From Qaidamihabitans albus (lineage in GTDB: Bacteria; Actinomycetota; Actinomycetes; Mycobacteriales; Pseudonocardiaceae), in assembly GCF_016464705.1 (NCBI RefSeq), contig NZ_JAEHOB010000025.1, positions 1 through 56,506 of the forward strand: a stretch of DNA of 56,506 bases, in the 5' to 3' direction. Made by a program: the position numbers and the translations under genes. Of this stretch, positions 5,624 to 51,908 are shown one piece after another (the stretch's first letter is position 1; each line of letters starts with the position of its first letter). The notes beneath the pieces were generated by a model. The model was given only the letters and a program-made list of their open reading frames with translations. It did not search any database and had not been told where the DNA came from.

Positions 5624-5677
5624 CTCGTGAGTGCGCACGCGAGTTAGAACACTGTTACGCATTCACGACCGGTGACC
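5624..5677 (-). repeat. Dispersed palindromic repeat, copy 1
   Basis: A 54-nt copy in the orientation opposite to the other three, differing at one position (ATTCAC for ACTCAC) and lacking the outer 8 nt at one end. It lies 44 bp downstream of the TetR gene stop (5722) and upstream of the isomerase promoter region. See copies at 36009, 45050 and 51847. Confidence 0.85.
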
Positions 5678-5721
5678 GGCACCAGTCGAGATGACGGATA
5701 CGCCCGCTGCCACCGGCGAGG

Positions 5722-6303
5722 TCACTCGCGGCTGTCGGCGCCGAGTACCAGGTCGACGAACGCCTCCATCGCCTCGTCGGCCGCCCGCACGTCACCGGTG
5801 ACGAGCACATCGTGGAGCAGGCCGCGTGCGACGGCGAGACCGAGGCGGGCATGCACCCTGGCGGACGCCGGGTCGTGGCCTGCGCGCTCCAGCAGTCCGG
5901 TCAGCGCGTCGAGCCACGGACCGACCAGGTTCGCCCGCAACGCCTCCGCGTGCGGCTGTGCCTGCATGGCATGAGCCGACAGTTCGAAGAACAGTGGCCC
6001 GTACCGCAGCGCGGGCCCGACAACGAGAGACCAGAAGCGCAGCACCGCCACGCGCGGGGCGACATCCGCGGCGTCGGCCAAGGCTTCGAGAGTGTCCCGT
6101 TGCCCGCGTTCGACGACATCGACGATCTCGGCGAGCAGTCCCTCGCGTGAGCCGAAGTGGTAGATGAGCATGCGGTGGCTGGTGCCGATCGCCGCCGCGA
6201 GCCCGCGCAGGCTCCGGTCGGTCACACCGTTGTCCGCGAGGTGCTCGATCGCCGCGTGCAGCAACCGGTCCCGCCCGGCGACCGTGGTCGCTCCATCCCG
6301 CAT
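5722..6303 (-). CDS. TetR-family transcriptional regulator
   Basis: 193 residues with a TetR N-terminal HTH (about residues 10-55: RDRLLHAAIEHLADNGV, then LRGLAAAIGTSHRMLIYHFGSREGLL) and a divergent alpha-helical ligand domain. Its start codon at 6303 overlaps a perfect 16-bp palindrome, so it very probably represses itself and the divergent SRPBCC gene at 6342. The ligand is unknown. Confidence 0.9.
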   Translation of the reverse strand: MRDGATTVAGRDRLLHAAIEHLADNGVTDRSLRGLAAAIGTSHRMLIYHFGSREGLLAEIVDVVERGQRDTLEALADAADVAPRVAVLRFWSLVVGPALRYGPLFFELSAHAMQAQPHAEALRANLVGPWLDALTGLLERAGHDPASARVHARLGLAVARGLLHDVLVTGDVRAADEAMEAFVDLVLGADSRE

Positions 6304-6318
6304 GTACCATATGGTACA
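6303..6318. promoter_or_regulatory. TetR operator TGTACCATATGGTACA
   Basis: A perfect 16-bp palindrome in the 38-bp gap between the divergent TetR and SRPBCC genes, touching the TetR start codon. The short gap implies that both promoters overlap the site. Confidence 0.75.
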
Positions 6319-6341
6319 GACGGCGAGCCGGAGGTGCGCTG

Positions 6342-6788
6342 ATGGTTGTCACGGCGGAGGAAGACGTCGACGCGGCACCGGCGGCACTGTGGGCGATCCT
6401 GGCGGATCCGGAGGCATGGCCGCGGTGGACGGGGTCCATCGACAACGTCGAGGTGCTCGACGGGAACCTGCACCTCGGGTCGCGGGTGCGGATCACCCAG
6501 CCCGGGATGTGGCCGCTGCTGTGGACCGTCTCCGAGTTCGAGCCGGGACGGGCTCTCACCTGCACCGCATCGGCGGGCGGGGTCGGCACCGCCGCGTCCC
6601 ACACGGTCGGCCCGCTGGACGGGGGACGGCGGAGCCGCCTGCACCTCGGACTGACGCAGCGCGGAGTGATGGCGCCCGTGGTCTCGCTGTTGCTCGGCCA
6701 CCGCGTGCGCCGCTACGTCCGGCTCGAGGCCGCGGGCCTCAAGGCCGCCGCCGAGGACCACGCCCGGCGAGCGGCAGGCGAACACTGA
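6342..6788 (+). CDS. SRPBCC-family (START-like) protein
   Basis: 148 residues of the polyketide-cyclase/SRPBCC fold: an N-terminal strand and helix (VTAEEDVDAAPAALWAILADPEAWPRWT) followed by an antiparallel sheet and a long C-terminal helix that would close a hydrophobic ligand pocket. GGAGG lies 7 nt before the ATG. Probably controlled by the adjacent divergent TetR. Whether it is enzymatic or a ligand carrier cannot be told. Confidence 0.85.
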   Translation: MVVTAEEDVDAAPAALWAILADPEAWPRWTGSIDNVEVLDGNLHLGSRVRITQPGMWPLLWTVSEFEPGRALTCTASAGGVGTAASHTVGPLDGGRRSRLHLGLTQRGVMAPVVSLLLGHRVRRYVRLEAAGLKAAAEDHARRAAGEH

Positions 6789-6828
6789 CGGCCGATGACC
6801 AGGCCCCGGGCCGGTGAGGCGGTGCGGC

Positions 6829-7701
6829 TCAGCCGGGACGCAGGGTGGTCTTCGCCTCGCCGGTGGCGGGATCGTGGGGAAAGGACAGATGCTGATGGAT
6901 CATCAGCCAAGCGCCGTCTCTCCGTTCGAACACCCGGGTCCCGCGTGACCAGGTGTCGACGGTCTCGCCGGAGCCGTCCTCGACCCGGACGTGGTTGAGT
7001 CCCCACGTGACGGCGATGTCGCCCCGGACGAGGATCTTCAGGTCGGGTACGTCCAAGCTGACGGAGGCGTCGGCGGCCGCCGCGAGGCCGCGCGCGCAAA
7101 CCTCCCGCACCGCCTCGGCCCCGACGTACTGAAGGGGCTCGTCGTGCTCGTAAGAGACGACGTCACCGGCGATGCGGGCCATCATCCCGTCCAGGTCCTT
7201 CGCCGCGGTTTCGTTGAACCAGTTCCGGTGCAACAGGCGCACCTCCTCCTCGGCCTGCTCGGGGTCGGCGCCGTCCTGCCGATCGCCGTCCTGGGGTGGA
7301 GCCGGGTCGGCGAGGGGGAACGAGTGATGCTCGTGTGCGACGACCCATCGGCCGTCCTGCTTGCGCAGGCCGAGCGTCAGCCGCAGGCGGTTCTCCGGGT
7401 CGGCGGCGAGGTCCTCCGGTGTGCCGCAGCGCAGCAGGGCGTAGGCGAAGGCGACATCGTCACCCGCGACGATGTCGAGCGATTCGATGTCGAACGAGGC
7501 GCCTTGCGCCTGCCAGCCGAAGAACGGAGGCCAGGTCTCGCGGTAGGCATCGATGCCGCGCACGCCGCGGTGGGGTGGTGGCACGTCGAACATCACGATG
7601 TCCGTGGCGTGGTCGGCGAGGACACCGTTCATGTCGCCGGAATGCACTGCTGCCGCCCAGCGCTCGATCAGGGTCCGGATCTGCTTTTCGTCTGCGGGCA
7701 T
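6829..7701 (-). CDS. Tandem SnoaL-like (NTF2-fold) protein
   Basis: 290 residues made of two SnoaL/NTF2-like domains: about 1-140 (ERWAAAVHSGDMNGVLADHATDIVMFDVPPP) and about 150-285 (HRNWFNETAAKDLDGMMARIAGDVVSYEHDEP). Both keep the helix, strand and cone-shaped pocket pattern, including the DGRWVVAHEHHSFP and DGAWLMIHQHLSFP strands, so the protein probably arose by domain duplication. Calcium/calmodulin-kinase-association-type SnoaL_3 proteins look like this. Downstream of the ECF sigma gene (72-bp gap), whose own C-terminus is SnoaL-like, so a functional link is plausible. Confidence 0.8.
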   Translation of the reverse strand: MPADEKQIRTLIERWAAAVHSGDMNGVLADHATDIVMFDVPPPHRGVRGIDAYRETWPPFFGWQAQGASFDIESLDIVAGDDVAFAYALLRCGTPEDLAADPENRLRLTLGLRKQDGRWVVAHEHHSFPLADPAPPQDGDRQDGADPEQAEEEVRLLHRNWFNETAAKDLDGMMARIAGDVVSYEHDEPLQYVGAEAVREVCARGLAAAADASVSLDVPDLKILVRGDIAVTWGLNHVRVEDGSGETVDTWSRGTRVFERRDGAWLMIHQHLSFPHDPATGEAKTTLRPG

Positions 7702-7772
7702 CGCGCTTCGTCCCTTCCAGTGGAAGCTCTGTCAGGACTACAACCCGCGCGGATCCGGAAAATCATCGCGAG

Positions 7773-8777
7773 TCACCGCATCGATTTCGGCAGCTCCGCC
7801 GGCAGGCCGAACGCGGTGAGGTCGGCATCCAGGAACGAGACCACCTCGGCCACCCGCCGGCCACGCAGGACCACCAGGTCCAGGCCCGCCGCGGCATGGA
7901 CGGCCCTGCTGTCGTCCCACATGTACGTGCCGAAGGCGAGGTGCCCGTTGGCCCACGTCGGCAGAAAGCGCCAACGATGCCTCAGGGGTCCCTCGAGCAG
8001 GAAACGGCGAATTCCGTCGTGACCGGCGTACCACGCCGGCAGCGGCGGCATCGCGTACTTCGCGTCCTCGGTCAGCATGGCGACGATCGCGTCGACGTCC
8101 CCGGCCTCCCACGCGCTCATGTACCGCCGGGCGACCTCGCGTACGGACCCGTCGCCGAGCGCTTCCAGGGTTCCCTGCTGCGTGGCCTCCGGCAGCAGTC
8201 CGGCCATCGTCCTCCGGGCCCGCTGGAGGCTGCTGTTGACCGCGGCGACCGTGCTCTCCAGCACGTCGGCGACCTCGCCGGCGGCGTAGCCGAGCACGTC
8301 GCGGAGGAGCAGGACCGCCCGCTGCGCCGGCGACAGGTGTTGCAGGGCGGCGACGAAGGCCAGCTCCACGCTCTCCCGCGCCACGACCCGCTCCTCCGGG
8401 GTCAGTTCCGTCGTCCAGCTCATCAGCCGGTCCGGGTACGGTTCGAGCCAGACGGCCTCGGCCACGGCCGCGCCTTCGGGACCGAGATCGGTGGGCAGCG
8501 CGCGGCGGCCCCGTCGCTCGATGAGCGTCAACGACCTGTTCGTCGCGATCTTGTACAGCCACGGCCGGATCGACCCGCGGTCCTCGAACCGTCCCAAACC
8601 TCGCCAGGCCCGATCGAACGTCTCCTGCACCGCGTCGTCCGCGTCATGGACGGAGCCGAGCATCCGATAGCAGTGCGCGCGCAACTCCTCCCGCAACGGC
8701 CCCACAAGCCGGCCGAAGGCCTCGTCGTCACCGGCGCGCGCCGCGGCCAGCAGATCCGCCGCCGTCGCCTCGTCCAT
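7773..8777 (-). CDS. ECF sigma factor with C-terminal SnoaL-like domain
   Basis: 334 residues. Sigma region 2 (residues about 15-85: [25 protein letters not shown]) and region 4 (about 130-185: [26 protein letters not shown]) are followed by a SnoaL-like domain (about 205-325). This architecture matches the TIGR02960/SigX5-type ECF group, where the tail modulates activity in place of a classical anti-sigma factor. ATG 8777 is preferred to the GTG at 8798 because AGAGGG lies 7 nt upstream. The promoter targets are not visible. Confidence 0.88.
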
Positions 8778-8857
8778 TCCCCGCCCTCTGCTCGTCACAG
8801 GAGCAAGACTACGAAGCCCGGCTCGGACCCCGCCGTCACCCGGTGCCGACGCGATCG

Positions 8858-9474
8858 TCAGCCGAGCAGGAAAGTGCCTGCTTGCCGGGTGACCGGTTCC
8901 GGCGCCGTCCAGAACGCGGAATGGTCGTGGTCAGGCAGAGTCAGCACGGTGACGTTAGGCAGGATCGCGGCCAGCGCGTTGGCGCCCTCACGGATGAAAG
9001 CCTCACCGTTACCGCCGACGGCCACCGCGATCGGCACGTCGATCGACCAGCGGTCGGTGGGCAGCGGTTTGCCGTCCTGGAGCCCGCGGAGGATCCGGCC
9101 GTCGTAGGCGTAGGTGTGCGCGTACTCGGCCATTGCGTCCCAGGAAGGGTCCTGCTTCATCGCTGGGATGTACTCCGCCGGGACACCGATCATCTCGGTC
9201 ATGAAGTACTCGACGGCCTCGCTGCGCCTGCCCGCCGCGACCAGCGCTTCCTGGTGTTCGACGTAGTCGGCGGGCGCCGGAGGCCGGGAGTCGTCGACGA
9301 TGAACGGCGGCTCGTAGAGATAGAGCCCTTTCACCTTGCCGCCCAGTGCGCCGGCCGCGTCCATGGCGAGCCCGCAGCCACCAGAACCGCTGTCAGCGCC
9401 GCAGAGCCGCCTGCGACATCGATCAGTGCGGCGATGTCGTCGATCTCGCGCGCCGGGTCGTAGGGCTGCGGGTC
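8858..9474 (-). pseudogene. Alpha/beta hydrolase, N-terminally truncated and frameshifted
   Basis: The frame open from 9364 to 8858 carries the C-terminal two thirds of a small alpha/beta hydrolase (GKVKGLYLYEPPFIVDDSRPP and PDHDHSAFW, the last with the likely catalytic His). Homology continues upstream in a different frame (PYDPAREIDDIAALIDVAGGSA, up to about 9470), so an indel lies near 9395 at the nucleophile elbow (GSGGCGLAMDAAG). The expected first 80-90 residues with the oxyanion HG motif are absent; the sequence runs directly into the ArsR gene stop. A deletion plus a frameshift; not functional as it stands. Confidence 0.75.
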
Positions 9475-9775
9475 ACCAGGAGCCGAGGGGATCCATCCGC
9501 TCCGACCACAGGGCGGCGAATCCCTGCACCCAGTCGCTCAGCTCGCGGATCGATTCGGGGCGCAGCCGGTAGATCCGCTGCTGGGACCGCTTGGTCACCT
9601 CGACCACGCCCGCCTCGGCGAGCAGCCGCAGATGCCGGGACACCTGCGGCTGACCCATACCCAGCGCGTCGACGATTCCACCCACCGGCTGCGGGCCGTC
9701 CCTGAGCAACTCGACGATCCGGAACCGGTTCGGCTCCGAGATCGCCGTCAATCGCTGCTGCACGCTGTCGACCAC
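9473..9775 (-). CDS. ArsR-family transcriptional regulator
   Basis: About 100 residues of a winged-HTH ArsR protein (RLTAISEPNRFRIVELLRDGPQPVGGIV, then GMGQPQVSRHLRLLAEAGVVEV and RIYRLRPESI). No metal-binding CxC motif is seen in the recognition helix. The GTG at 9775 is preferred; the longer GTG start at 9814 would translate through a promoter-like TATATATTA stretch. The C-terminus ends at the junction with the truncated hydrolase, so its last residues may be altered by the deletion. Confidence 0.8.
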   Translation of the reverse strand: MVDSVQQRLTAISEPNRFRIVELLRDGPQPVGGIVDALGMGQPQVSRHLRLLAEAGVVEVTKRSQQRIYRLRPESIRELSDWVQGFAALWSERMDPLGSW

Positions 9776-9778
9776 GCC

Positions 9779-9794
9779 CTGAACATACAGGGTA
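9779..9794. promoter_or_regulatory. ArsR operator candidate
   Basis: CCCTG-N6-CAGGG in the minus-strand reading, immediately upstream of the preferred GTG and adjacent to an AT-rich -10-like element. Self-repression by the ArsR protein is the simplest reading. Confidence 0.4.
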
Positions 9795-9862
9795 ATATAT
9801 ATACACGCAAGCACATTTATAGGCCGGACGTTGCCCGAGCTAGTCGGAAGCTGTCACAACGC

Positions 9863-10085
9863 TTATGGTGCGGCGGTGACCTGCTCGGTCAGGAGCAGGT
9901 AGATGAACCGCAGGCTGACATCGCCGCGCGGAGTGGGCCCTGGTGTCGTCGAGGTCGAAATCGGCGGCGATCACGCGGGAACGTTCGCTGGCGCGTACGA
10001 ACTCGGCGATCACATCGGCCAGCGTTTCGCCGTCGGTGACAACGAAACTGCCGTCGCCACCCGTGGCGTTGCGGACGCTTCCGGC
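9863..10085 (-). pseudogene. DinB/DUF664-family protein, C-terminal remnant
   Basis: Minus-strand frames encode SFVVTDGETLADVIAEFVRASERSR then, after an indel near 9920, DVSLRFIYLLLTEQVTAAP and a stop at 9863. This is the second half of the DUF664 (DinB-like) pattern, where a DLDD loop is followed by SLRW-x-L-x-HMIEE. The usual HNGHADLLRE tail and the whole N-terminal half are missing. An intact relative sits at 51955-52434. This fills most of the gap between the ArsR and PhoX genes. Confidence 0.55.
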
Positions 10086-10133
10086 CCTTGTCAGACGGTC
10101 CTCGGGGAATACCGGTTACCGACTGCCGCCTGT

Positions 10134-11285
10134 TTACCGGGAGGTGCGGAAGGGGCCGGTGATCTCGTAAGTGATGCCGCCGATGGGCAGGCCCCAGGTT
10201 CCGCGCTGTGAGGAGAAGTACAGGCGGTCACCGGCGGGGTTGAAGGCGACCCCGCAGAGCTCGGAGTCGGACTGGCCGGTCACGCGCAGGAACGGTGCGA
10301 CGATGTCGTCGGGGGTGATGACGCAGATCTCCATGTTGCCGCCGTCTTCGGCGACGTAGAGGTCGCCGACGTGCGTGTCACCGGTGATGTTGTCGACGCC
10401 GGTCAGCGGGGGGTTGGAGGTGGAGTCGTCGTCGTAGACGGTGCTGAGGGTGTTGGCCGCGGCGTCGTAGGCCCAGACCTTGTTGTCACCCTTGGTGGTG
10501 AAGAAGCACTTGTCGTTGGTGTAGTAGGCGCCCTCGCCACCGTTGAAGAGCTTGGCGCCGGATACCTGCTTCATGGTGGGGGTGGGCACGCCGTCGGGAT
10601 CGGGAACGTCCATCCAGGACAGGCTGCCCGCGCTGTCGACCAGCACCTGCAGCGTGCCCGCCGACAGGTCCGGCCACACGGTGGGGACGAAGCGGTAGAA
10701 GCATCCGTCAGAGGTGTCCTCGGTCTGGTAAACCACCTTGCGGACCGGATCGCAGGCGGCGGCTTCGTGCTTGAACCTGCCCATCGCGCGGCGCCGCACC
10801 GGGGCTTTGCCGCCCCACGGGTCGGTTTCCCAGGTGTAGCCCAGGTCGTGCTCCTCGCAGGACAGCCAGGTGTTCCACGGAGTGGCGCCGCCGGCGCAGT
10901 TGAGGCTGGTTCCCGACAGGATCGGGTAGGCGTCGACGATCCGCGCGTTGCCGTCGAACTTCACCGCGCCCACGCCGCCGAGCAGCGGGATCTCCGAGTT
11001 GGATACGTAGATCCAGCCGTCGCCGTCGCTGAAGCAGGCACCGCCATCGGGCGCGCTGTGCCACACGTGGCCAGTGCCGGGCACGGTCCGGAGCGACCGC
11101 GCGATGACTCGGCTGGTGAAGCCGGCGGGCAGTTGGATGCCGTTGGCGTCAGCAGTCCGCAGCGGGCCGTACGGGCTCGGACCGGTCTGAGCCGGGTAGG
11201 CGATCGCCTGCCGGGTGACGCTGAAGCCCAGTGCGGCCGCACTGGTTCCGACAACCGCGGCGCGGAGGAAGCTGCGACGGTCCAC
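10134..11285 (-). CDS. Tat-exported PhoX-type alkaline phosphatase (DUF839)
   Basis: 383 residues from a GTG with GGGAAGAG just upstream. A twin-arginine signal (DRRSFLRAAVVGTSAAALGF) directs folded export, as in PhoX enzymes that load calcium and iron in the cytoplasm. The body has the DUF839 propeller landmarks (TPWNTWLSCEEHDLGYTWE, MGRFKHEAAACDP, VYQTEDTSDGCFYRFVP, FFTTKGDNKVWAYD, NITGDTHVGDLYVAEDGGN). A role in releasing phosphate outside the cell follows from the family. Transcribed divergently from the LPMO gene. Confidence 0.87.
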   Translation of the reverse strand: MDRRSFLRAAVVGTSAAALGFSVTRQAIAYPAQTGPSPYGPLRTADANGIQLPAGFTSRVIARSLRTVPGTGHVWHSAPDGGACFSDGDGWIYVSNSEIPLLGGVGAVKFDGNARIVDAYPILSGTSLNCAGGATPWNTWLSCEEHDLGYTWETDPWGGKAPVRRRAMGRFKHEAAACDPVRKVVYQTEDTSDGCFYRFVPTVWPDLSAGTLQVLVDSAGSLSWMDVPDPDGVPTPTMKQVSGAKLFNGGEGAYYTNDKCFFTTKGDNKVWAYDAAANTLSTVYDDDSTSNPPLTGVDNITGDTHVGDLYVAEDGGNMEICVITPDDIVAPFLRVTGQSDSELCGVAFNPAGDRLYFSSQRGTWGLPIGGITYEITGPFRTSR

Positions 11286-11523: not shown

Positions 11524-11552
11524 TTGAAGTTCACGCCCCTCGCGTATACGCT
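11524..11552 (+). promoter_or_regulatory. LPMO promoter
   Basis: TTGAAG (11524-11529) and TACGCT (11547-11552) are 17 bp apart. The CebR-type operator starts 12 bp after the -10 box, so a bound repressor would cover the transcription start. Confidence 0.5.
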
Positions 11553-31142: not shown

Positions 31143-31256
31143 ATGTCGCCGGAAGCCGGCAACCGGGGCCGGGTGCCCACCGAACGCATCGCCTGGCAGG
31201 CCACGCTCACGGTCCTGCTGACGGCCGCCGTGCTCATGCTGACGGCGTGGAACTGA
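31143..31256 (+). CDS. 37-residue single-span membrane peptide
   Basis: ATG 31143 follows AAGGAG by 6 nt, a good ribosome site, and lies just after a TetR operator. The N-terminal half is polar and charged (PEAGNRGRVPTERIAW), the C-terminal half one hydrophobic helix (ATLTVLLTAAVLMLTAW). The last codons and the stop lie inside the left arm of a 29-bp perfect hairpin. It may be a functional small membrane protein or a leader peptide whose translation affects the hairpin. Confidence 0.55.
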   Translation: MSPEAGNRGRVPTERIAWQATLTVLLTAAVLMLTAWN

Positions 31257-31310
31257 CGGGGGTGGCGTGCCCGGCCGGGCCGGCCGGGCACGCCACCCCC
31301 GTCAGTTCCA
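31248..31310 (+). promoter_or_regulatory. 29-bp perfect hairpin between leader ORF and epimerase gene
   Basis: Arms 31248-31276 and 31282-31310 are exact reverse complements over 29 bp with a 5-nt GGGCC loop. The left arm includes the stop codon of the 37-residue ORF; the right arm ends 26 bp before the epimerase ATG. There is no T tract, so this may be an attenuator, an mRNA-processing site or a terminator rather than a plain intrinsic terminator. Confidence 0.75.
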
Positions 31311-36008: not shown

Positions 36009-36061
36009 TCGTGAGTGCGTAACAGTGTTCTAACTCGCGTACGCACTCACGAGAGGTGACC
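36009..36061 (+). repeat. Dispersed palindromic repeat, copy 2
   Basis: 53-nt copy with one difference from copies 3 and 4 (ACGCAC for GCGCAC), lacking the outer GGTCACCGG. It overlaps the last 15 nt of the histidine kinase gene: the repeat encodes its last residues (GHLS with its stop). Confidence 0.88.
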
Positions 36062-37126
36062 GGGAAGTCGAACCGTGACGAGGAGACCACCGCCTGCGCG
36101 GGGTCTGAGGTCGAGGATCCCGTCGTGTGCTCGGACGATGCTGTGCACGATGGCCAGCCCGAGGCCGACGCCGGCGTGCTCGTCGGTGCGTATGCGTTCT
36201 GTTCCGCGTTGGAAGGCTTCGGTGAGGGTCGGTACCAGCTCCGCTGGCACCGGGTGGCCTGTGTTCTCGACCCGCAGCACGCTCGCGTCGTGCTGCGATT
36301 CGGTGTGGACCGTTACGGTGCCCCCGGCGGGGAGGTTGTGGACGATGCCGTTCTGGACGAGGTTGGTCACCATCCGCCGGATAAGCGCCGCGGAGCCGAC
36401 GGTCTGTGTCGCCTCGCCGGTGACGTCGAGCGTGATCCTGCGCTTCTCGGCGAGGGAAAGCAGTGTTTCGGCGGCTTCTTCGGCGATGAGGGAGAGCTCG
36501 ACGGGCTCGCTGGTGAAGCCGCGGTCGCCGCGGCTGAGCAGCAGGAGGGCCTCGGTGAGGTCGATCGCCCGCGTGTTGACGGTGTGGAGGCGTTCAATGA
36601 GTTCACGCTGGTCCCGCGCGGGGTCGTTGCGGGCGACGTCGAGGAGTGTCTGCGAGATCGCCAGCGGGGTGCGCAGTTCGTGGGAGGCGTTCGCGGCGAA
36701 CCTTTGCTGTTCGGCGACGTGTGACTCGAGTTGTTCGAGCATGGTGTCGAACACGTCGGCGAGTTCGCGGAACTCGTCTTTACGGCCTTCCATGCGGATC
36801 CGGTGGGACAGCGATTCGTCCGACGCCATCCGTGCCGCGTCCGCGATCCGGGTGAGCGGTGCGAGCATCCGGCCGGCGAGGATCCATCCTCCCAGGACGC
36901 CGAACACGAGCAGGAACGCCAGTGCTGCGGCCGCTGGTGGGACGAAGACGCGCAGGAGGACGCGCTGGTTGGGTGCGACCCCGAGCAGGCCCTGCTGGTT
37001 GTCGGGTACGTAGCGCAGCAGGAACACCCATACAACGGCCAGCAGGAGAGCGCCGGCGAGGAGGAGGAATCCGGCGTAGCTGATGGTGAGTTTCAGCCGG
37101 GCGCTGAGCCCTGGGCGCCTATTCAC
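36047..37126 (-). CDS. Sensor histidine kinase (OmpR/VanS type)
   Basis: 359 residues. Two membrane helices (LKLTISYAGFLLLAGALLLAVVWVFLLRY and PPAAAALAFLLVFGVLGGWILAG) enclose a short external loop of about 35 residues, then HAMP, HisKA with the phospho-acceptor His in NASHELRTPLAISQ, and HATPase_c (NLVQNGIVHN; GVGLGLAIVHSIVRAHDG). GTG 37126 overlaps the end of the response regulator gene. The short sensor loop suggests sensing in or at the membrane. The last codons and stop come from the dispersed repeat at 36009-36061. Confidence 0.92.
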   Translation of the reverse strand: MNRRPGLSARLKLTISYAGFLLLAGALLLAVVWVFLLRYVPDNQQGLLGVAPNQRVLLRVFVPPAAAALAFLLVFGVLGGWILAGRMLAPLTRIADAARMASDESLSHRIRMEGRKDEFRELADVFDTMLEQLESHVAEQQRFAANASHELRTPLAISQTLLDVARNDPARDQRELIERLHTVNTRAIDLTEALLLLSRGDRGFTSEPVELSLIAEEAAETLLSLAEKRRITLDVTGEATQTVGSAALIRRMVTNLVQNGIVHNLPAGGTVTVHTESQHDASVLRVENTGHPVPAELVPTLTEAFQRGTERIRTDEHAGVGLGLAIVHSIVRAHDGILDLRPRAGGGLLVTVRLPGHLS

Positions 37127-37792
37127 GAGTACCACCGGTGTCGATCCGGTAGCCGACGCCGGGCACCGTGGCGATGAGCCATGGTTCGCCGAGTCGTTTG
37201 CGCAATGCGGAGACGGTGATGCGGACAGCGTTGGTGAAGGGGTCGGCGTTCTCGTCCCAGGCCCGCTCCAGTAGCTCTTCGGCGCTGACGACACCGCCTT
37301 CGGCGGCGACGAGGACCTCGAGCACGGCGAACTGCTTCCGGGTGAGCGCGACGTAGCGTCCGTCGCGGAAGACCTCCCGGCGGAAGGGGTCGAGCCGCAG
37401 GCCCGCGATCTCGCTGACCGGAGGCCGGGCGTGCGCGCGCCTGCGGTCGAGCGCCCGCAGCCGCATGACAAGCTCCCGAAGCTCGAACGGTTTGGTGAGG
37501 TAGTCGTCGGCACCGAGCTCGAACCGGAAGCCTTGTCGTCGATCCGGTCGGCAGCGGTGAGCATGAGGATCGGGATGCCGCTGCCGGAGGCGACGATTCG
37601 CCGGGCGATCTCGTCGCCGGAGGGGCCGGGGATGTCGCGATCGAGGACCGCGAGGTCGTAGGAGTTGATGCTGAGCAGCTCCAGGGCAGTGTCACCGTCG
37701 CCCGCGATGTCGGCGGCGATAGCTGCCAGCCGGAGACCGTCACGGACGGCTTCGGCCAGGTAGGGCTCGTCCTCCACGATCAGCACGCGCAT
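37119..37792 (-). pseudogene. OmpR-family response regulator with a frameshift near 37527
   Basis: The receiver N-terminus (VLIVEDEPYLAEAV; phospho-acceptor Asp in YDLAVLDRDIPG; LMLTAADRIDDK) reads from 37792, then a single missing base shifts the frame. The expected FELGADDYLTKPFELRELVMRLRAL and the winged-helix DNA-binding domain (LTRKQFAVLEVLVAAEGGVVSAEELLERAW; VRITVSALRKRL) continue in the next frame to the stop at 37119. Without the shift it would be a normal regulator of about 224 residues. Upstream of, and overlapping, its kinase gene. Confidence 0.85.
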
Positions 37793-44979: not shown

Positions 44980-45049
44980 GATGCTCTCCTTGTCCTGGCT
45001 GGCGAAGAATCGTCGATGGTGGACACGATCAGGGCGAACCATTTCCGCG

Positions 45050-45111
45050 GGTCACCGGTCGTGAGTGCGTAACAGTGTTCTAACTCGCGTGCGCACTCAC
45101 GAGAGGTGACC
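45050..45111 (+). repeat. Dispersed palindromic repeat, copy 3
   Basis: Full 62-nt copy. The ends form an imperfect inverted repeat (18 of 20 positions: GGTCACC then TCGTGAGTGCG on one side, the complement on the other) around a 22-nt centre. Identical to copy 4 over the whole length. It lies 31 bp after the stop of the membrane protein gene at 45143. Confidence 0.92.
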
Positions 45112-45142
45112 AGGCGCGATGCCGCACCTGCATGGGTTGTAG

Positions 45143-45511
45143 TCAGGATCGCGGCGCTACGGGGCGTCCCCTCTTCCGCATCGCGAATGCGAGGGTCACG
45201 CCCATGACGAGGGCGACGAGTGCTCCCGCGAGACGGATTGCCGTGCCGACAGCCTGCCCCGCGCCATCGACGCCGGCGAGAGTGAAGGCACTCGGGACGA
45301 CCTCCGCGAGAGCGACCAGTGCCGCGACCAGCGCCGGCCAGCGATGGTCCGGAAGGAACGCGACCAGGCAGGCTCCGGCAACCAGCAGAACGGCGCCTGG
45401 AGGCACGAGTGGCATGGCCATCCCGGCTGCCTTGGCGAGGCCCATGCCGAGCACGCCGGCGAAGAGCCCGGAGATGGTGATGAGTCTGAGGGTGGAAATG
45501 TTCTTGGTCAC
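45143..45511 (-). CDS. Small integral membrane protein of unknown function
   Basis: 122 residues from a GTG at 45511 with a weak ribosome site. Four hydrophobic segments (LITISGLFAGVLGMGLAKAAG, GAVLLVAGACLVAFL, ALVAALVALAEVVPSAFTLAG, AVGTAIRLAGALVALVMGVTLAF) and a basic C-terminus. No family recognised. Downstream of the DoxX-like gene on the same strand but separated from it by a hairpin terminator. Confidence 0.65.
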   Translation of the reverse strand: MTKNISTLRLITISGLFAGVLGMGLAKAAGMAMPLVPPGAVLLVAGACLVAFLPDHRWPALVAALVALAEVVPSAFTLAGVDGAGQAVGTAIRLAGALVALVMGVTLAFAMRKRGRPVAPRS

Positions 45512-45615
45512 GTGGACAGCGTCGTCGCGGAGAGCTCGTGGGGCGTCAGCGTGATGACGCAACTGGATGTACGCGACCAGGCGTAGCGAGGTTTCCCCGC
45601 ACGCTCTCAACGTGG

Positions 45616-45650
45616 AGGTGGCCCGGGCGAGCTCCTCGCCCGGGCCACCT
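45616..45650. terminator. Hairpin terminator after the DoxX-like gene
   Basis: A perfect 16-bp stem (45616-45631 with 45635-45650) and a CTC loop lie 14 bp downstream of the DoxX-like gene stop. Confidence 0.7.
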
Positions 45651-45663
45651 GAGTGCGGTCCCG

Positions 45664-46203
45664 TCACCGGGCCCGGCCGGTCCGGTCGGTGACCATGCGG
45701 GCGCCGAGTGCCGTGGCTGCGACGACAGCTGCAGCTGCGAGCAGGATGACGTCCTTCAGCACGTACTGCGCCTCGATAGTCGGCAGTCCACCCGGGAACA
45801 TCTCGCCAGGAAACAGCACGACCGGCATCATGATCCCGCCAAGCCAGCCCGCCATCACGACGAGGCACCAGCGCAGTCCGCGGCCGGTGAGCAGGGACAG
45901 GCCGATCAGGGTCTCGAGCACGGCCGTGATCAGCACCGCAGGCCGTCCGTCGACGACGCCGAAGGTCAGAGCCTCGGTCGTCTGCATGACCAGTCCCTCG
46001 GCGGGCGAGGCGCCGGGCACGTACTTGAGAGCGCCGAAGCCGGCGATGACCAGGCCGAGGCTGATCCTCAGCGCGGCGACGCTGTGCGCGGCGAGCCACT
46101 CAGCCAGGGTTGCCGTGAATCGCGGCACGCGGGGCCTGCCTCCGTCGTCGGGCGGGGGCACCGCGGTTGTCGAGGCGATCCGCGGAATCGTGGTGGGAGC
46201 CAT
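45664..46203 (-). CDS. DoxX/DUF417-like membrane protein
   Basis: 179 residues, ATG 46203 with GAGAAGGAG upstream. After a proline-rich N-terminus there are four hydrophobic segments (ALRISLGLVIAGFGALKYVPGA, GRPAVLITAVLETLIGLSLLTG, WCLVVMAGWLGGIMMPVVLF, YVLKDVILLAAAAVVAATAL). The FGALKYVPGASPAEGL motif is typical of DoxX-related proteins. Function unknown; some relatives act with thiosulfate or redox stress. Divergent from the two-component system at 46449. Confidence 0.75.
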   Translation of the reverse strand: MAPTTIPRIASTTAVPPPDDGGRPRVPRFTATLAEWLAAHSVAALRISLGLVIAGFGALKYVPGASPAEGLVMQTTEALTFGVVDGRPAVLITAVLETLIGLSLLTGRGLRWCLVVMAGWLGGIMMPVVLFPGEMFPGGLPTIEAQYVLKDVILLAAAAVVAATALGARMVTDRTGRAR

Positions 46204-46448: not shown

Positions 46449-47612
46449 ATGGGCGGGATCCCCGTCCCACTCGTCCACGAGGCGCCTGCCAGGCGTCGGC
46501 CGTCGCGTGCCGTGATCGACGGTGTGCTCGTCGCAGTCCTGACGACCGTCGTCGTGTTCAGCCTGCCCTTCGTGGCCGAGGGCGATGGCACCGACCGTCC
46601 ACTCCCCGTGGGCTTCGGTTTGGTGCTGGCGGCGGCCGCGGCGACAGCCGTGCGTGGCCGCCACCCCGCTGTGGCCGCCCTGATCGCGGTCGCTGCGACG
46701 TCGACGTACCTCGCACTCAGCTATCCCTACAGCCCGGTGTTCGCGTTCGTGTTGCTGACCGTCTACACACTCGCGCGCCGCCTGCCGCTCCTGCGGTCCG
46801 CGCTACTCGCCCTGGTCTGTCTCGTGATGCTGAGCGCGCACGTGCTCAGCAACGATGCCGCTCTCTCCGGTGCGATCGGGCTGCTTCCTGCGACAGCCTG
46901 GATCGCCATCCCGTTCACCGTCGGCGCCGCCCGCCGGATGGTGGTTGCGGCGGCGGCGCGGGAACGTGCGGCCACCGACCGGCAGCTCGTCGACGCCGAG
47001 CGCCTCCGGCTTTCGCAGGAGGTGCACGACGTGGTCGGACACGGGCTGGCGGCGATCCAGATGCAGGCCGACATCGCGCTGCACGTGGCGCAGCAGCGGC
47101 CCGGGCAGATGCGCGAAGCCCTCGCCGCCATCAGCACTGCCAGCGGGCAGGCGCTGACCGAGCTCCGCGAGACCCTGCGCAGCACCCACCCGGACGGCGA
47201 GGCGAAGGCCACCCGTGCTCCGACCCCCGGTCTGGCCCGGGTGCGCGAGCTGTGCGACCGAGTCGCCGACGTGGGCGTCGAGGTCGACCTCACGATCTCC
47301 GGCGAGCAGCGGCCGCTCATCGAAGCCGTCGACGTGGCGGCATACCGGGTGCTCCAGGAGGCACTGACCAATGTGGTCAAACACTCTCCGCACCCGCGCG
47401 CGGAGGTGCGGATCAACCACACCGCGGACTCGGTGACCGTCGAGGTCACGAACCAGAACCTGGCGCCGGCACCGCCCGCGCCGGGGATCGGCATCAGCGG
47501 CATGCAACGCAGGACCGCTGCGGTCGGAGGCACCTTCTCCGCCGGCCAGGGCACCCGGCCGGCGACGTTCACCGTCTGCGCCACCTTCCCACGAAGCCAG
47601 GAGACCCCATGA
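46449..47612 (+). CDS. NarL-family sensor histidine kinase
   Basis: 387 residues from ATG 46449 with GGAGG 6 nt upstream. About five membrane helices in residues 20-165, a HisKA_3 dimerisation domain with phospho-acceptor His in LRLSQEVHDVVGHGLAAIQMQADIALH, and a compact HATPase (AAYRVLQEALTNVVKHSPHPRAEVRI; GIGISGMQRRTAAVGG). No separate sensor domain, so sensing is probably in the membrane. Its stop overlaps the start of the cognate regulator. Confidence 0.93.
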   Translation: MGGIPVPLVHEAPARRRPSRAVIDGVLVAVLTTVVVFSLPFVAEGDGTDRPLPVGFGLVLAAAAATAVRGRHPAVAALIAVAATSTYLALSYPYSPVFAFVLLTVYTLARRLPLLRSALLALVCLVMLSAHVLSNDAALSGAIGLLPATAWIAIPFTVGAARRMVVAAAARERAATDRQLVDAERLRLSQEVHDVVGHGLAAIQMQADIALHVAQQRPGQMREALAAISTASGQALTELRETLRSTHPDGEAKATRAPTPGLARVRELCDRVADVGVEVDLTISGEQRPLIEAVDVAAYRVLQEALTNVVKHSPHPRAEVRINHTADSVTVEVTNQNLAPAPPAPGIGISGMQRRTAAVGGTFSAGQGTRPATFTVCATFPRSQETP

Positions 47613-48268
47613 ACCAGCTGATCTCGATGATGCTGGTCGACGACCAGGACCTCGTCCGCCTCGGGCTGCGCACGCTCTTCGACGCCGAGGACGGGTTCGA
47701 GGTCGTCGCGGAGGCAGCCGACGGCCTGGCCGCGGTCAAGGAAGCCCGCCACCACCGGCCCGCCGTGATCCTGATGGACATCCGCATGCCCGGCATCGAC
47801 GGTCTCGACGCCACCCGCCGGATTGCCGCCGACGAGACCCTCGCCGACGTCAAAATCATCGTGCTGACCACCTTCGAGCACGACAACTACGTCTTCGAGG
47901 CACTCCGAAGTGGCGCGAATGGCTTCCTCCTCAAGAGCACACCCCCGACAACCCTGGTCGAGGCGGTCCGAACCGTCGCCGACGGTGCGGCCCTGCTCTC
48001 CCCGACCGTGACCCGAACCCTGATCAGGGAGTTCGTGGAGATCGCGCCGCGGACAGTGACACCGCACCCTCGCCTGGAGCACCTCACCGAGCGGGAACGG
48101 GAGATCGTCGGCCTGGTCGCACAGGGCATGAGCAACCAGGAGATCGCCGACCATCTCGTGCTCAGCCCGGCCACCGCACGTACCCATGTCAGCCGCGCAA
48201 TGATCAAACTCGGCGCACGAGACCGGGCGCAGCTGGTCGTGTTCGCGTACCAATCCGGCCTCGCCTGA
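47609..48268 (+). CDS. NarL/FixJ-family response regulator
   Basis: 219 residues. Receiver domain (MMLVDDQDLVRLGLRTLF; phospho-acceptor Asp in AVILMDIRMPGIDGLDATRRI; VLTTFEHDNYVFEAL; Lys in GFLLKSTPP) and a LuxR-type HTH (LTEREREIVGLVAQGMSNQEIADHLVLSPATARTHVSRAMIKLG). ATG overlaps the kinase stop by 4 nt, so the pair is translationally coupled. The targets are unknown; the divergent DoxX-like gene is a candidate. Confidence 0.94.
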   Translation: MNQLISMMLVDDQDLVRLGLRTLFDAEDGFEVVAEAADGLAAVKEARHHRPAVILMDIRMPGIDGLDATRRIAADETLADVKIIVLTTFEHDNYVFEALRSGANGFLLKSTPPTTLVEAVRTVADGAALLSPTVTRTLIREFVEIAPRTVTPHPRLEHLTEREREIVGLVAQGMSNQEIADHLVLSPATARTHVSRAMIKLGARDRAQLVVFAYQSGLA

Positions 48269-48381
48269 GGCAGCTCAGGAATGTCCTGTCTCATCGAAGG
48301 CGGCACCGTCTCAGACCTCGACCCGCGCGGCGATGACACCCGGGTCCCGGTGAACAGCCTGCGCGCCACTATGCTGGGCCA

Positions 48382-48816
48382 ATGCCGTCGGTCAAGCAGT
48401 TCCAAGTCACCTTCGACTGCGCAGAACCTGAGCGCGTCGCTCGTTTCTGGTGCGAGGTGTTGGGGTATGTCGTACCGCCGCCACCGGAGGGGTTTGCCAC
48501 TTGGAACGACTTCGATCGCTCGCTGCCGCCTGAGCGTCAGGGTTCAGCGTTCGCCTGCATCGATCCCTCGGGTGTGGGCCCGCGACTGTTCTTCCAGCGC
48601 GTTCCCGAAGGGAAGGCCGTCAAGAACCGGGTGCATCTCGACGTGCGGGTCGGCACCGGTCTCGTGGGTGAAGAGCGCCTCGCCGCGCTCGAGGCCGAGT
48701 GCGCACGACTGGTCGCGCTCGGCGCGGTACGCGTGCGACTACTGGCTGCCGATGGCGACGAAGAATCGTGCATCGTGATGCAGGACATCGAGGGCAACGA
48801 GTTCTGTCTCGACTGA
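48382..48816 (+). CDS. VOC-family (glyoxalase-like) protein
   Basis: 144 residues of the glyoxalase_6 type: FQVTFDCAEPERVARFWCEVLGYVV at the N-terminus, a RVHLDVRVG strand in the second half and VMQDIEGNEFCLD at the end. Metal ligands His and Glu appear in the expected strands. Substrate unknown. No strong ribosome site. Follows the response regulator by 113 bp. Confidence 0.85.
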   Translation: MPSVKQFQVTFDCAEPERVARFWCEVLGYVVPPPPEGFATWNDFDRSLPPERQGSAFACIDPSGVGPRLFFQRVPEGKAVKNRVHLDVRVGTGLVGEERLAALEAECARLVALGAVRVRLLAADGDEESCIVMQDIEGNEFCLD

Positions 48817-48824
48817 GGAACATC

Positions 48825-49020
48825 TGGGTCAGGAGATGTACCGGGACGTCTTCGCTGGCACGGGAGTGGTACCGCTACATCAACTACGCCGACGTGGATT
48901 TGGCCGCCCCTCAGTGGAACTCCGGGTGTGTGGACGAGCCCCTCGTGGTTCCCCGACAGAAAGCCGCGACGGCACCCCCGCTTGCGCGATCGGCAGCACG
49001 GCCACGGCGGTGGTAGCGGC
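48825..49020 (+). pseudogene. Possible C-terminal remnant of a FAD-linked oxidase
   Basis: WYRYINYADVDLAAPQWNS (48867-48923) resembles the sequence just before the berberine-bridge C-terminal region of FAD-linked oxidoreductases; the following sequence continues only weakly in another frame. No other part of such a gene is present. Tentative. Confidence 0.35.
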
Positions 49021-49055
49021 ACGCGGAACGCCATCCTCGTCGTTCCCGTCATCAC

Positions 49056-49634
49056 TCAGCGGTCCTGGCGGACGCCGCGCCGCCAGACGTCGCAGATGGA
49101 GCTGGTCGCGGTGACGTCGCTGGTGGGGTCACCGTCGACCAGCAGGAGGTCCGCGCGCAGACCTGGGGCGATCCGACCGCGGTCGGCCAACCCGAAGTGG
49201 CGGGCGGGCACACTGGTCGCTGCGGCGAGCGCCTCCTCGCTGGTGAGTCCGGCCCGCGTCAGCAGGACCAGTTCGCGGTGCATGCTCTCCCCGTGCACCG
49301 GGGCGAAAGGGGTCGCGTCCGTGCCGGCCAGCAGCGGCACACCCGACCGGTGCAACGCTCCCGCCGCGCGCACAGCATTCCCCGCGCTGCCGGGTGAAGC
49401 GTGGTCGACACCGCCTGCTCCCTGCTGGCCGATCACCTCGAAGTACACCAGCGTGCTGACCACGAACACGCCCTGCGCCGCGATCCGCGCGGCAAGTTCG
49501 GACGCACTCTGTCCCGCGTCGGCCCAGACGTGCGCGAGACCGTCGACACCCGCGTCGAGAGCGATCCCGACCTCGGACGCCGTGATCGCGTGCGCGATCA
49601 ACCAAGAGCCCGGTCTCGCTGGCCGGTGTAACAC
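49056..49634 (-). pseudogene. Amidohydrolase C-terminal fragment
   Basis: About 190 residues match the C-terminal half of imidazolonepropionase-type amidohydrolases: AHAITASEVGIALDAGVDGLAHV, GVPLLAGTDATPFAPVHGESMHRELVLLTRAGLTSEEALAAAT, and GLADRGRIAPGLRADLLLVDGDP. The metal-binding HxH and the N-terminal beta-sandwich, about 200 residues, are missing; the frame begins at the junction near 49625, just before a divergent sigma factor gene. Probably inactive. Confidence 0.78.
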
Positions 49635-49726
49635 GCTGAGGCCCCAGTCACATCCGCGGCCCGCGATGTCACATCACGGACGCCCCTGGTCCTCTTATGG
49701 GCGCACCGTGACAGGAGGGCACCACC

Positions 49727-50615
49727 ATGACCGACCGTGACTCCGCCACGCAGCGGTTCGTCGAACATCGCGAACTGCTGTTCTCCATCGTCTACAACAT
49801 GCTCGGCAGCGTCGCCGACACCGAGGACGCACTCCAGGAGACCTGGCTGGCGTGGACTGACGCGGACCAGGAGCGGATCGAGAACCCGCGCGCCTACCTC
49901 GTGCGAATCGCGGTCAACCAGGCCCTCGCCCGCCGGAAGGCCATCAGCCGTCGCCGGGAGACCTACATCGGGCAATGGCTGCCCGAACCACTGGTCACAG
50001 ACCCAGCCGACACAGCCGACGCGGCCGACGCCGTGCTGCACACCGAGTCGTCCTCGGTGGCGCTTCTGGTCGTGCTGGAAACCCTCAGCTCGACCGAACG
50101 CGCGGTGTTCGTCCTGCACGAGGTTTTCGGCTACGCCCACACCGAAATCGCTGACGTCATCGGCCGCAGCCCCGCCGCGGTGCACCAGCTCGGACACCAG
50201 TGCCCGCCAACACGTGCACGCCCGCCGGCCCCGCTACCAGGTCGACACCCGCGTCCAGCGGGAGGTGACCAAACGCTTCGTCACCGCCGCGATCGGCGGC
50301 GACCTCCAAGCACTCCTCCGGATCCTGGCCCCTGACGTAACACTGTGGACAGACGGCGGTGGCAAGGGACCCGCCACGAGCCTCCAGCCGGTCCACGGCC
50401 GCGACGCGGTAGCCGAACTCCTCGTGGCCGTCGGATCCAGCGCCCCTCAGAGCCTCGAAGTCCGCTACCGCCACGTCAACGGAGACTCGTCCGCCCTGCT
50501 CTTCATCGGCGAGTCACCGTTCGCTGTCCTGGTTCTCGACCCGACACCGGACGGCGACCGGATACGAGGTATCTACTCGGTCACCAACCCGGACAAGCTG
50601 ACCCGGGTCCGCTGA
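49727..50615 (+). pseudogene. ECF41-type sigma factor with SnoaL-like tail, frameshifted near 50197
   Basis: Sigma regions 2 (IVYNMLGSVADTEDALQETWLAW) and 4 (LSSTERAVFVLHEVFGYAHTEIADVIGRSPAAVHQLGH) read from ATG 49727. The expected ARQHVHARRPRYQVD and the SnoaL-like domain (TKRFVTAAIGGDLQALLRILAPDVTLWTDGGGK; ending IYSVTNPDKL) follow in another frame up to the stop at 50615. One extra base near 50197 explains the split. In ECF41 factors the tail is needed for control, so a truncated protein might be unregulated or unstable. Could be a sequencing error. Confidence 0.85.
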
Positions 50616-51022
50616 CCCGTTGCGGTTGACGCGGTCTGGCGGGCACAGCCAGGCCGTGAGCGGCCTGCGTAGCCGACTCGTCGGGGCCGGCGGTCGACGG
50701 CCCGAAGCTGGGGCTCATCAGATCGACGCCGGAAGCTGTCGAGCTTGGTGTCGCGACGCGTTCATCGCGCCCAGCAAAGCGCTCGACGCCGATCCGGGCT
50801 TCACAGGTTGCCCCGGCTCCGGCTATCGGGGCCCGTACGCCGACAGCGGCATCCATGCCATGACTCGAGCGTGGTCATCGAAACCTGTTCCGGACAGCCG
50901 CTTCACCGGGGTTCAGCCGAAGCGGGTACTCGTCATCCGGAGTGCAGAACACCGGGTCTCGTCCGGCGCGGCAGCAAACGTCAGATCCACCGCGGCAGGA
51001 GCCTGTTGATGGTGCTCGTCGG
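50616..51022. other. 407-bp interval without a recognisable gene
   Basis: Between the frameshifted sigma gene and the GIY-YIG gene. Open frames exist on both strands but none has codon bias, a ribosome site or a recognisable family. Confidence 0.4.
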
Positions 51023-51796
51023 CTACTCCGCGCCCTTGTCCCGGTTGATCACCACGACGTCCCCGTCGAGGTAGGTCAGAGCCAGCGCAGCATGCTCGGC
51101 GAGCACGCGGGCGGTCTTGCGGCCGAGCGGCAGCGTCTCGGCCTCGCCGCGGGACTCGATCGTCGCGTGCAGCGCCACGGCCAGCGTGACCGTGCCGCCG
51201 CAGTAGAGGTGCGCTCGGAGTTCGTCGTGGATCCGCTGGTTGGTCTGCTGGGTCGGCCCGGGCCGGCGGTAATGGTAAGTACGGTGGCGGAGGTCGTCGG
51301 ATTCGCCGATGTAGACCTTCGGCAGCTCCTGATCGGCAGCGTCGGCCAGGGTGAGGCGGTAGATGCCCGACTGACAGGGCAGAGCCGGGAACACGACGTC
51401 GCCCGCATCGTCGAGGGTGACGTGCCCAGCGCGCTGCCACTCCATGGTGATCCGCACGTCGAGCTGCGCGGCATCGGTCTCCTCGACGAGCACCGCAGCC
51501 GCCGTGTCGTGCAGCGGTCGGTGACCGCGCGCCCGGTAACTGCCACCGACCTTGCCGCGGGCGAACCGGACCTGGCGGCGCTCAAGGTCCACGGTGTCAA
51601 CATGCCAGTCGGCGTCTCGCCATGCCTGTGCATGGCTGTGGCTGCTGTTGGCCCACCACTGACGACTCTCGTAAGCCGACGCCGGGAGCTCGCCGACCAG
51701 CGTCGCGATGTCGCCGAAGCCGAACTCGGCATGCCGATGGCCCGCCCTGGCCAGCTCGGACAGCCGCACGAACAGCGGCTGATACTTTCCGGCCAT
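51023..51796 (-). CDS. DUF7662-GIY-YIG fusion protein
   Basis: 257 residues from ATG 51796 with AGGAGG upstream. The N-terminal domain (about 1-75: KYQPLFVRLSELARAG, FGFGDIATLVGELPASAYESRQWWANS) is the DUF7662 type often found near restriction or nuclease genes. The C-terminal half carries GIY-YIG landmarks: SGIYRLTL, KVYIGESDDLRHRTYHYRR. The catalytic Arg of the family is likely in DDLRHR. A DNA-binding or repair nuclease is plausible; a role in defence is only a guess. Confidence 0.78.
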   Translation of the reverse strand: MAGKYQPLFVRLSELARAGHRHAEFGFGDIATLVGELPASAYESRQWWANSSHSHAQAWRDADWHVDTVDLERRQVRFARGKVGGSYRARGHRPLHDTAAAVLVEETDAAQLDVRITMEWQRAGHVTLDDAGDVVFPALPCQSGIYRLTLADAADQELPKVYIGESDDLRHRTYHYRRPGPTQQTNQRIHDELRAHLYCGGTVTLAVALHATIESRGEAETLPLGRKTARVLAEHAALALTYLDGDVVVINRDKGAE

Positions 51797-51846
51797 ACCC
51801 ACCTCCTCGCCGCCATATCGTGTTCGTCAGCATGGTGCGCCGGCCA

Positions 51847-51908
51847 GGTCACCGGTCGTGAGTGCGTAACAGTGTTCTAACTCGCGTGCGCACTCACGAG
51901 AGGTGACC
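51847..51908 (+). repeat. Dispersed palindromic repeat, copy 4
   Basis: 62-nt copy identical to copy 3; the identity runs four bases further on the right side (AGGC). It lies 46 bp after the stop of the DinB gene (51955) and 50 bp upstream of the GIY-YIG start. Confidence 0.92.

Follow-up and report, generated by a model that had tools for sequence, protein, structure and literature searches.

A lineage-specific family of 44-bp palindromes at gene 3' ends in Qaidamihabitans albus and other Pseudonocardiaceae

Repetitive extragenic palindromic (REP) elements carry a conserved tetranucleotide beside their hairpin, and the DNA uptake sequences of Neisseria and Haemophilus are short fixed words that occur as inverted pairs after genes and come in dialects. 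According to passages of PMC1525189, REP elements measure 21-65 nt, are found between convergent genes and can be invaded by insertion sequences (IS) at their axis. As for the intrinsic terminators of actinobacteria, passages of PMC12207403 describe weak U-tracts, long hairpins and 3-4 U per 10 nt in Streptomyces, and passages of PMC12288462 describe I-shaped terminators with weak or absent U-tracts in mycobacteria. In this study, we analyzed a stretch of 56,506 nt (the window), one of the contigs of the 6.53-Mb draft genome of Qaidamihabitans albus (G000), in which a palindrome recurs at four gene ends. We found that it belongs to a lineage-specific family of extragenic palindromes with a fixed length of 44 bp. 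The family and its copy number, its location at stop codons as well as in convergent gene pairs, its near-invariant tips and fixed length, its species-specific interior and its turnover at orthologous sites are established by our data. From these sequence features we infer, with moderate confidence, that the palindromes are most likely bidirectional 3'-end signals, acting in termination and/or in the definition of mRNA 3' ends. No description of the 44-bp palindrome was found in searches of open-licence papers or among the listed text matches to its 9-letter tip, and the accessible passages of a REP survey (PMC12306157) make no mention of Amycolatopsis or Pseudonocardiaceae.

Repeat unit and distribution

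The first-pass annotation of the window had described four dispersed copies of a 62-nt palindromic repeat at gene 3' ends. All four are where it placed them, far beyond chance: when up to 3 mismatches are tolerated, the window matches the 31-nt core CGTGAGTGCGTAACAGTGTTCTAACTCGCGT at exactly 4 places, and 100 dinucleotide shuffles match it nowhere. Its reading of the repeat as a dispersed, REP-like element was also borne out, with a high copy number: the core GTAACAGTGTTCTAACTCGCGT (up to 3 mismatches) has 116 matches in the Q. albus genome, 100 of them listed with their places, and its reversed control has none. What had to be revised is the unit. The repeat is the inner 44 bp, an imperfect palindrome with the consensus TCGTGAGTG-N9-GTTNNAAC-N9-CACTCACGA, and a fixed 62-nt element is rejected because the outer arms are the flanks of a miniature inverted-repeat transposable element (MITE). 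Searching the genome for the tips alone, TCGTGAGTG-N(10-40)-CACTCACGA, gave 454 sites (control 0), and a fixed length of 44 with at most one tip mismatch gave 485.

The uniformity of the unit was assessed in an unselected 800-kb sample of the Q. albus genome (C12:1-400000 plus C23:1-400000). Of the 66 exact-tip pairs with a spacing of at most 140 bp, 61 have a length of exactly 44 bp, and the remaining five measure 35, 69, 91, 134 and 135 bp. The 91-bp spacing fits a tandem double in which two elements stand 3 bp apart (C23:349379-349422 and 349426-349469); the sister species Prauserella shujinwangii has one element there. At up to 3 tip mismatches the sample contains 68 elements, including a doubtful one with 3 tip mismatches (C23:161432), and 61 of the 68 are free of any tip mismatch. 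In 134 half-sites, taken from elements selected for no more than 2 tip mismatches, constancy reaches 99-100% at the tip positions and 96-100% at GTT, and the middle is variable. Copies selected through the centre only (96 matches) have near-intact tips too. The base directly outside the tip is C in 88%, G in 12% and T in 1% of 136 flanks, never A, and 66 of 68 elements have AG/CT as their central dinucleotide. Tips rarely stand singly: 127 of the 140 found in 800 kb lie inside 44-bp palindromes and 13 outside.

The copies in the window are of a hybrid subtype, in which a half CGTAACAGTGTT is joined to a half CGCACGCGAGTT. The first half is found in symmetric form in genome G003, and the second in Q. 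albus itself. With 116 hybrid cores against 485 family elements, most members carry other interiors. The fixed non-palindromic centre noted by the first-pass annotation thus holds within the hybrid subfamily and not genome-wide, where interiors differ. The two halves are not equivalent in Q. albus: when elements are oriented with AG on top, 65 of 66 left halves and 46 of 66 right halves have A at position 18. Equal asymmetry arose in 2 of 2000 random flips for Q. albus, in 187 of 2000 for P. shujinwangii and in 35 of 2000 for a further set of loci (L158-L269). Moreover, halves combine almost freely in the Q. albus genome.

Within the family Pseudonocardiaceae, at least one 44-bp site occurs in 90 of 249 genomes and in 19 of 46 genera, with one match in one genome for the reversed control. 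Many of the 90 genomes hold one or few sites and 23 hold at least 50; copy number is patchy within genera (from 1 to 398 in genus g27). The pattern is present in none of 24 genomes from other families of the order, and a class-wide draw of 394 genomes returned only Q. albus, genome G580 with 10 copies, and two singletons. G580 belongs to another family of the same order. Its palindromes keep the tips, and those listed have another centre, AGCAGGCT being one example. The tips may predate the centre or be shared through convergence. The named records among the matches listed are Amycolatopsis, Kibdelosporangium, Prauserella, Haloechinothrix, a metagenome-assembled genome of Actinophytocola, and 'Rhodococcus rhodnii'. 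Five loci (L176, L185, L196, L200 and L229) are titled Rhodococcus rhodnii NRRL B-16535, and the genome of L176 measures 12.4 Mb, well beyond the size usual for that species; this title may be a misidentification, and we did not count the doubted label as another family. Spread by phages or plasmids was rejected, as viral contigs contain no exact match to the 44-bp pattern and the 62-mer of the window is unmatched in plasmid and phage records, where other interiors were not searched.

Placement at gene ends and turnover between species

Genes were called with our own codon-bias script, which gives good stops and uncertain starts. Of the 68 elements in the 800-kb sample, 42 lie between convergent genes, 23 between tandem genes, 2 between divergent genes and 1 inside a called gene. 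Counted by gene pair, an element is found in 41 of 130 convergent pairs, compared with 23 of 451 tandem pairs and 2 of 131 divergent ones (Fisher 3e-12 for convergent vs divergent). In all 65 measurable cases the nearest stop falls between -25 and +34 nt relative to the element, and in 26 of these 65 the overlap with the gene end is exactly 6 nt, TCG-TGA, with the TGA inside the tip. The 95 hybrid copies are 53 convergent, 33 tandem, 8 divergent and 1 at an edge, and 16 other elements from the same loci are 5 convergent, 10 tandem and 1 divergent. In P. shujinwangii the figures are 13 convergent, 11 tandem and 2 divergent (n=26), and in the L158-L269 set 61, 45 and 5, with 16 at an edge; the nearest stop of this last set lies within 60 nt in 96 of 119 cases. 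In tandem gaps, the centre is oriented as AG in 38 and as CT in 21 of 60 cases (p 0.036), a weak signal on which we do not rely.

The comparison with P. shujinwangii CGMCC 4.7125 (G001), made over about 800 kb, bears on how the elements evolve. G001 was assigned to this strain through its rRNA locus of 3,088 bp, which is identical to that of the strain's record (the genome of L194) and sits at the same contig position. Both flanks are collinear for 27 Q. albus elements, which represent 26 distinct sites, since C23:349379 and 349426 share a single sister element (counted once for occupancy and twice for identities). P. shujinwangii has an element at 8 of the 26 sites (up to 2 tip mismatches, 7 with none), compared with 1.93 expected from its own occupancy by gap type (P 0.0003). 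Empty sites, which the first-pass annotation had proposed to look for in sister strains, exist in both directions, and long collinear blocks persist between the two genomes. Within a genome, the interior (positions 10-18) is 62% identical in Q. albus and 64% in P. shujinwangii. Between the genomes, identity is 23% for random elements and 25% for orthologous ones (9 rows, 8 sister elements), that is, at chance level. The tips, which were the selection criterion, are 96-99% identical in the same comparison. Each species thus has its own dialect, ...CGAGTT in Q. albus and ...CGTGGTT in P. shujinwangii. Tips that are alike around interiors at chance level between orthologues, together with this similarity within each genome, point to concerted evolution of the interior, which appears to be rewritten genome-wide while the tips stay near-constant and the sites persist or are re-used. 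The register relative to the gene is equal at one boundary (C23:330049, where both genes end CCC TCG TGA) and shifted at the others, so elements may have re-inserted at the same gene ends.

At one Amycolatopsis gene end, L188 has a 44-bp palindrome of the family and none of the ten relatives shown has it there. L288 carries a TGAATGACTCATTCA palindrome instead, L293 and L297 carry AAGGGGACGTTCC palindromes, and no repeat was recognized by eye in the other relatives. Finding different palindromes or none at a single gene end fits exchangeable end signals. An initial comparison of orthologous sites in Amycolatopsis gave a poor result on one side, owing to the different contexts in which the adjoining gene lies among the relatives. 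In P. shujinwangii, the counterpart of C23:311202 has a long palindrome of the CCAATGTGGCATTCGG type. The TGAATGACTCATTCA, AAGGGGACGTTCC and CCAATGTGGCATTCGG palindromes at gene ends may represent further families of like kind.

Candidate functions

Pairing of the arms is well kept in several species. For 54 of the 107 distinct elements of the L158-L269 set, the 21-bp stem is 93.8% paired, compared with 79.4% in shuffles; these elements have 151 double-changed cells against 55 in shuffles, and pairing falls to 31-40% in slid versions. Perfect symmetry is seen in 31 of 65 elements from nine named sets (10.1 expected) and in 2 of 25 elements of P. shujinwangii (0.55 expected). Symmetric copies fold at about -35 kcal/mol (z about -10). 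If the palindromes are 3'-end signals, the transcript of either gene would fold the arms, or the site would be bound as DNA, and a putative sequence-specific host factor would recognize, at a fixed distance from each other, the tips (C/G-TCGTGAGTG) and the centre (GTTNNAAC). This recognition would explain why the tips are preserved across genera and the interior varies concertedly inside each genome.

Several observations weigh against a role as 3'-end signals. The constancy of the tips is partly built in, as the searches demanded no more than 1-3 tip mismatches. The element is dispensable at many gene ends, since 18 of the 26 comparable sites have no clear element in P. shujinwangii, although one of them (C23:335274) looks decayed. 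No U-tract follows the hairpin (1.30 U per 10 nt in 246 flanks vs an intergenic mean of 1.67), and we found no RNA-strand bias, with 20 G.U and 25 A.C mismatches in gene sense. None of the 9 elements of Kibdelosporangium persicum is symmetric. In Q. albus, pairing is weakly kept: 11 of 67 elements of the unselected sample are perfectly symmetric (2.7 expected), the mean number of stem mismatches is 3.0 vs 3.55 (sd 0.16, 67 elements), and there is no covariation beyond shuffles in 27 of the 53 distinct elements. Because the excess of symmetry is weak and covariation is at the level of shuffles, half-site sequence seems to carry more constraint than pairing in this species.

A possible, if not likely, alternative is that the palindrome is a selfish and non-autonomous element of REP-like form, mobilized in trans by a putative non-RAYT recombinase that would need the tips and the centre (RAYT, REP-associated tyrosine transposase). 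Such an element would survive mainly at 3' ends, as insertion elsewhere would be harmful, and the dialects would be successive waves of master copies re-using the ends. The patchy copy number inside genera (1 to 398 in g27) is in agreement with this alternative, as are the empty sites in both directions, the mostly shifted register at shared sites, which re-insertion would give, and the tandem pair C23:349379/349426 where the sister has one element. REPs, too, lie between convergent genes in the account of PMC1525189, as far as its passages go. However, diverse interiors within a genome (62%) around near-constant tips mean that the copies are not just recent ones. By eye, no target duplication is obvious at the empty sites, and the viral, plasmid and phage searches described above gave no match. 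A RAYT-like gene, which the first-pass annotation had suggested seeking, is also missing: no RAYT (Y1_Tnp, PF01797) was found in Q. albus or P. shujinwangii, and the gene is present in 2 of the 23 genomes with at least 50 copies (absent from 21) and in 50 of the 249 family genomes overall. These absences rule out RAYT as the driver.

More doubtful is a DNA-level protein site involved in chromosome organization, supercoiling or site-specific recombination. The central AG/CT and the unequal halves would give it the polarity of an oriented complex, and the hybrids would come from central exchange. The fixed length, the AG/CT in 66 of 68 elements, the freely combined, non-equivalent halves of Q. 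albus (2 of 2000 flips) and the lack of RNA-strand bias are consistent with such a site, but the strong tie to stop codons is unexpected for a pure DNA site and pairing is well kept in most other species. In addition, frequent recombination among some 485 sites would scramble gene order, and the collinear blocks shared with the sister are long.

Finally, it is very improbable that these are ordinary I-shaped, U-tract-free intrinsic terminators merely sharing ancestry: placement after stops, stable hairpins (about -35 kcal/mol, z about -10 in symmetric copies) and the weak or absent U-tracts described for Streptomyces and mycobacteria (passages of PMC12207403 and PMC12288462) fit this explanation, but ordinary terminators need structure, and would require neither a 9-nt word that is near-invariant nor a constant length across several genera. 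U content is below background and below the Streptomyces value in PMC12207403, so far as its passages report it, and orthologous interiors should have stayed alike if ancestry were all that is shared, whereas 25% identity was observed. The first-pass annotation had argued against a simple terminator from the non-palindromic centre. That argument fails. The centre varies in the family, and 11 of 67 elements are perfectly symmetric; the near-invariant tips, the fixed 44 bp and the absence of a U-tract are better arguments against a plain intrinsic terminator.

Bidirectional 3'-end signals are the reading we retain. As a tentative and, we think, rather unlikely extension, Pseudonocardiaceae would have a sequence-specific 3'-end (termination) system in which a putative factor reads the near-invariant tips together with the interior of the species dialect. 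Sites and reader would co-evolve, hundreds of dispersed sites changing together, and competing palindrome families would replace each other at the same ends. In one genome, the family provides a recognizable signal at about a third of the sampled convergent pairs (41/130), and relatives with hundreds, dozens or no copies form a natural comparison set. The evolution of the interior between near-invariant ends is nearly completely concerted. To our knowledge, the homogenizing processes known do not obviously explain concerted change in dispersed 44-bp units, so that a co-evolving reader or a new copying process becomes testable. How transcripts end in GC-rich actinobacteria with weak or no U-tracts is still debated, as passages of PMC12207403 and PMC12288462 reflect.

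The window copies, their carrier and known systems

The four window copies are all 44-bp palindromes of the hybrid subtype. Copy 1 (5625..5668, minus strand) reads its GTAACAG half first on the minus strand and has one tip mismatch. It retains a MITE arm at 5669..5677 (minus strand), GGTCACCGG on that strand, and a TetR-family gene (TetR_N; 5722..6303, minus strand) ends 53 nt away. Copy 2 (36009..36052, plus strand) is followed by a remaining MITE arm, GAGGTGACC, at 36053..36061 (plus strand). The histidine kinase gene at 36047..37135 (minus strand, start uncertain) ends ...CTC TCG TGA, and this TGA lies within the right tip of copy 2 as read on the minus strand. Copy 3 (45059..45102, plus strand) sits in a worn MITE at 45027..45136 (plus strand), with flanks at 45027-45058 on the left and 45103-45136 on the right, limits set by eye against the consensus. 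An open reading frame (ORF) without Pfam match at 45143..46099 (minus strand) ends 40 nt from copy 3; it is less sure, as the gene caller did not choose it. By eye, only the last ~110 residues of this ORF resemble a small membrane protein. On the other side, the start of an erythromycin-esterase-family gene (PF05139; 43612-45042) adjoins copy 3. Copy 4 (51856..51899, plus strand) has the same sequence as copy 3, and its worn MITE (51847..51947, plus strand) keeps only GGTCACCGG on the left and a right flank that reaches a terminal-repeat-like GGGATCAAGGAAGGGTTC. A mycothiol-S-transferase-family gene (51955..52434, minus strand) ends 55 nt from it.

The finer points of the first-pass annotation stand up well here. 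The identity of copies 3 and 4, noted over 62 nt, extends to 66 nt; copies 1 and 2 have one changed base each, and copy 1 lacks one outer arm and copy 2 the other. The 7+11-nt arms pair as claimed, and the 62 nt of copy 3 fold stably, at -39.1 kcal/mol (z -6.7) on one strand and -33.8 kcal/mol (z -6.0) on the other. A distance of up to 50 bp to a minus-strand stop is correct when measured from the outer arm (stops at 5722, 36047, 45143 and 51955); from the 44-bp unit, the gaps of copies 1-4 are 53 nt, an overlap, 40 nt and 55 nt. Elsewhere in the window, a perfect 31-nt inverted repeat with a 1-nt spacer (31248-31310) overlaps a called gene and may represent either a hairpin or an artefact of the assembly.

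The involvement of a MITE, also anticipated by the first-pass annotation, was substantiated, as the outer arms belong to an element of about 151 bp with AGAGCCTGTCC-type ends. Among the 95 hybrid copies at the loci examined, the right flank is GAGGTGACCAGGCA-like in 45, the left flank TTCCGCAGGTCACCGG-like in 38 and both are present in 28, which by subtraction leaves 40 with neither. The best copies measure about 150-152 bp and have ends like AGAGCCTGTCCTCGAACC ... GGATCAAGGACAGGCTCT, from which we conclude that a MITE carries the palindrome. Flank columns away from the palindrome are mostly 35-77% conserved, compared with at least 94% in 40 of the 44 palindrome columns, a contrast partly built in by the selection of copies through their centre and tips. 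In the window, copies 3 and 4 are worn MITE copies, and copies 1 and 2 retain a short remnant. The window subtype probably multiplied in part through this IS-like carrier, whose flanks would then have worn away while the 44 bp stayed. A loose search for the MITE ends in 800 kb gave mostly chance pairs among the matches listed.

Rfam gave no match at the gathering score in the window, and only three sub-threshold matches at four loci, two of them microRNA models on the L188 palindrome (E 0.39 and 0.83). The ~151-bp carrier shares with MITEs its inverted ends (AGAGCCTGTCC...) and the CTAA/CTCA-like bases beside several copies. The 44-bp palindrome differs from MITEs in that it is mostly found without the carrier, and other interiors are not tied to it. 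At the empty sites seen in the comparison with P. shujinwangii, no target-site duplication of the unit is obvious by eye. Like DNA uptake sequences, the palindrome is a paired fixed word after genes and has dialects; unlike them, its tip is hardly found as an abundant single word (13 of 140). Integron attC sites, in which the conserved boxes are terminal, were considered as well. With actinobacterial intrinsic terminators it shares a stable hairpin just past the stop, possibly bidirectional and without a U-tract; the position near the stop holds in 65 of 65 measurable cases. In contrast to these, it has 9-nt ends and a centre conserved over several genera and a fixed length, and its inner stem in Q. 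albus is often unpaired.

The closest resemblance in size and location is to REP elements and bacterial interspersed mosaic elements (BIMEs). The palindrome is likewise short (44 bp), high in copy number (485 sites) and extragenic (1 of 68 inside a called gene), and often lies between convergent genes. In two palindromes (C12:332032-332166 and C23:41956-42090), similar fold-back inserts of about 90 bp occupy the centre with TA on both sides; they resemble the insertion of mobile DNA at the REP axis described in passages of PMC1525189. No conserved tetranucleotide was found beside the hairpin in 136 flanks, where only position -1 is strongly biased (C/G). The palindrome further differs from REPs and BIMEs in having no RAYT here, in its exact length, in standing mostly single and in the dialect of its interior.

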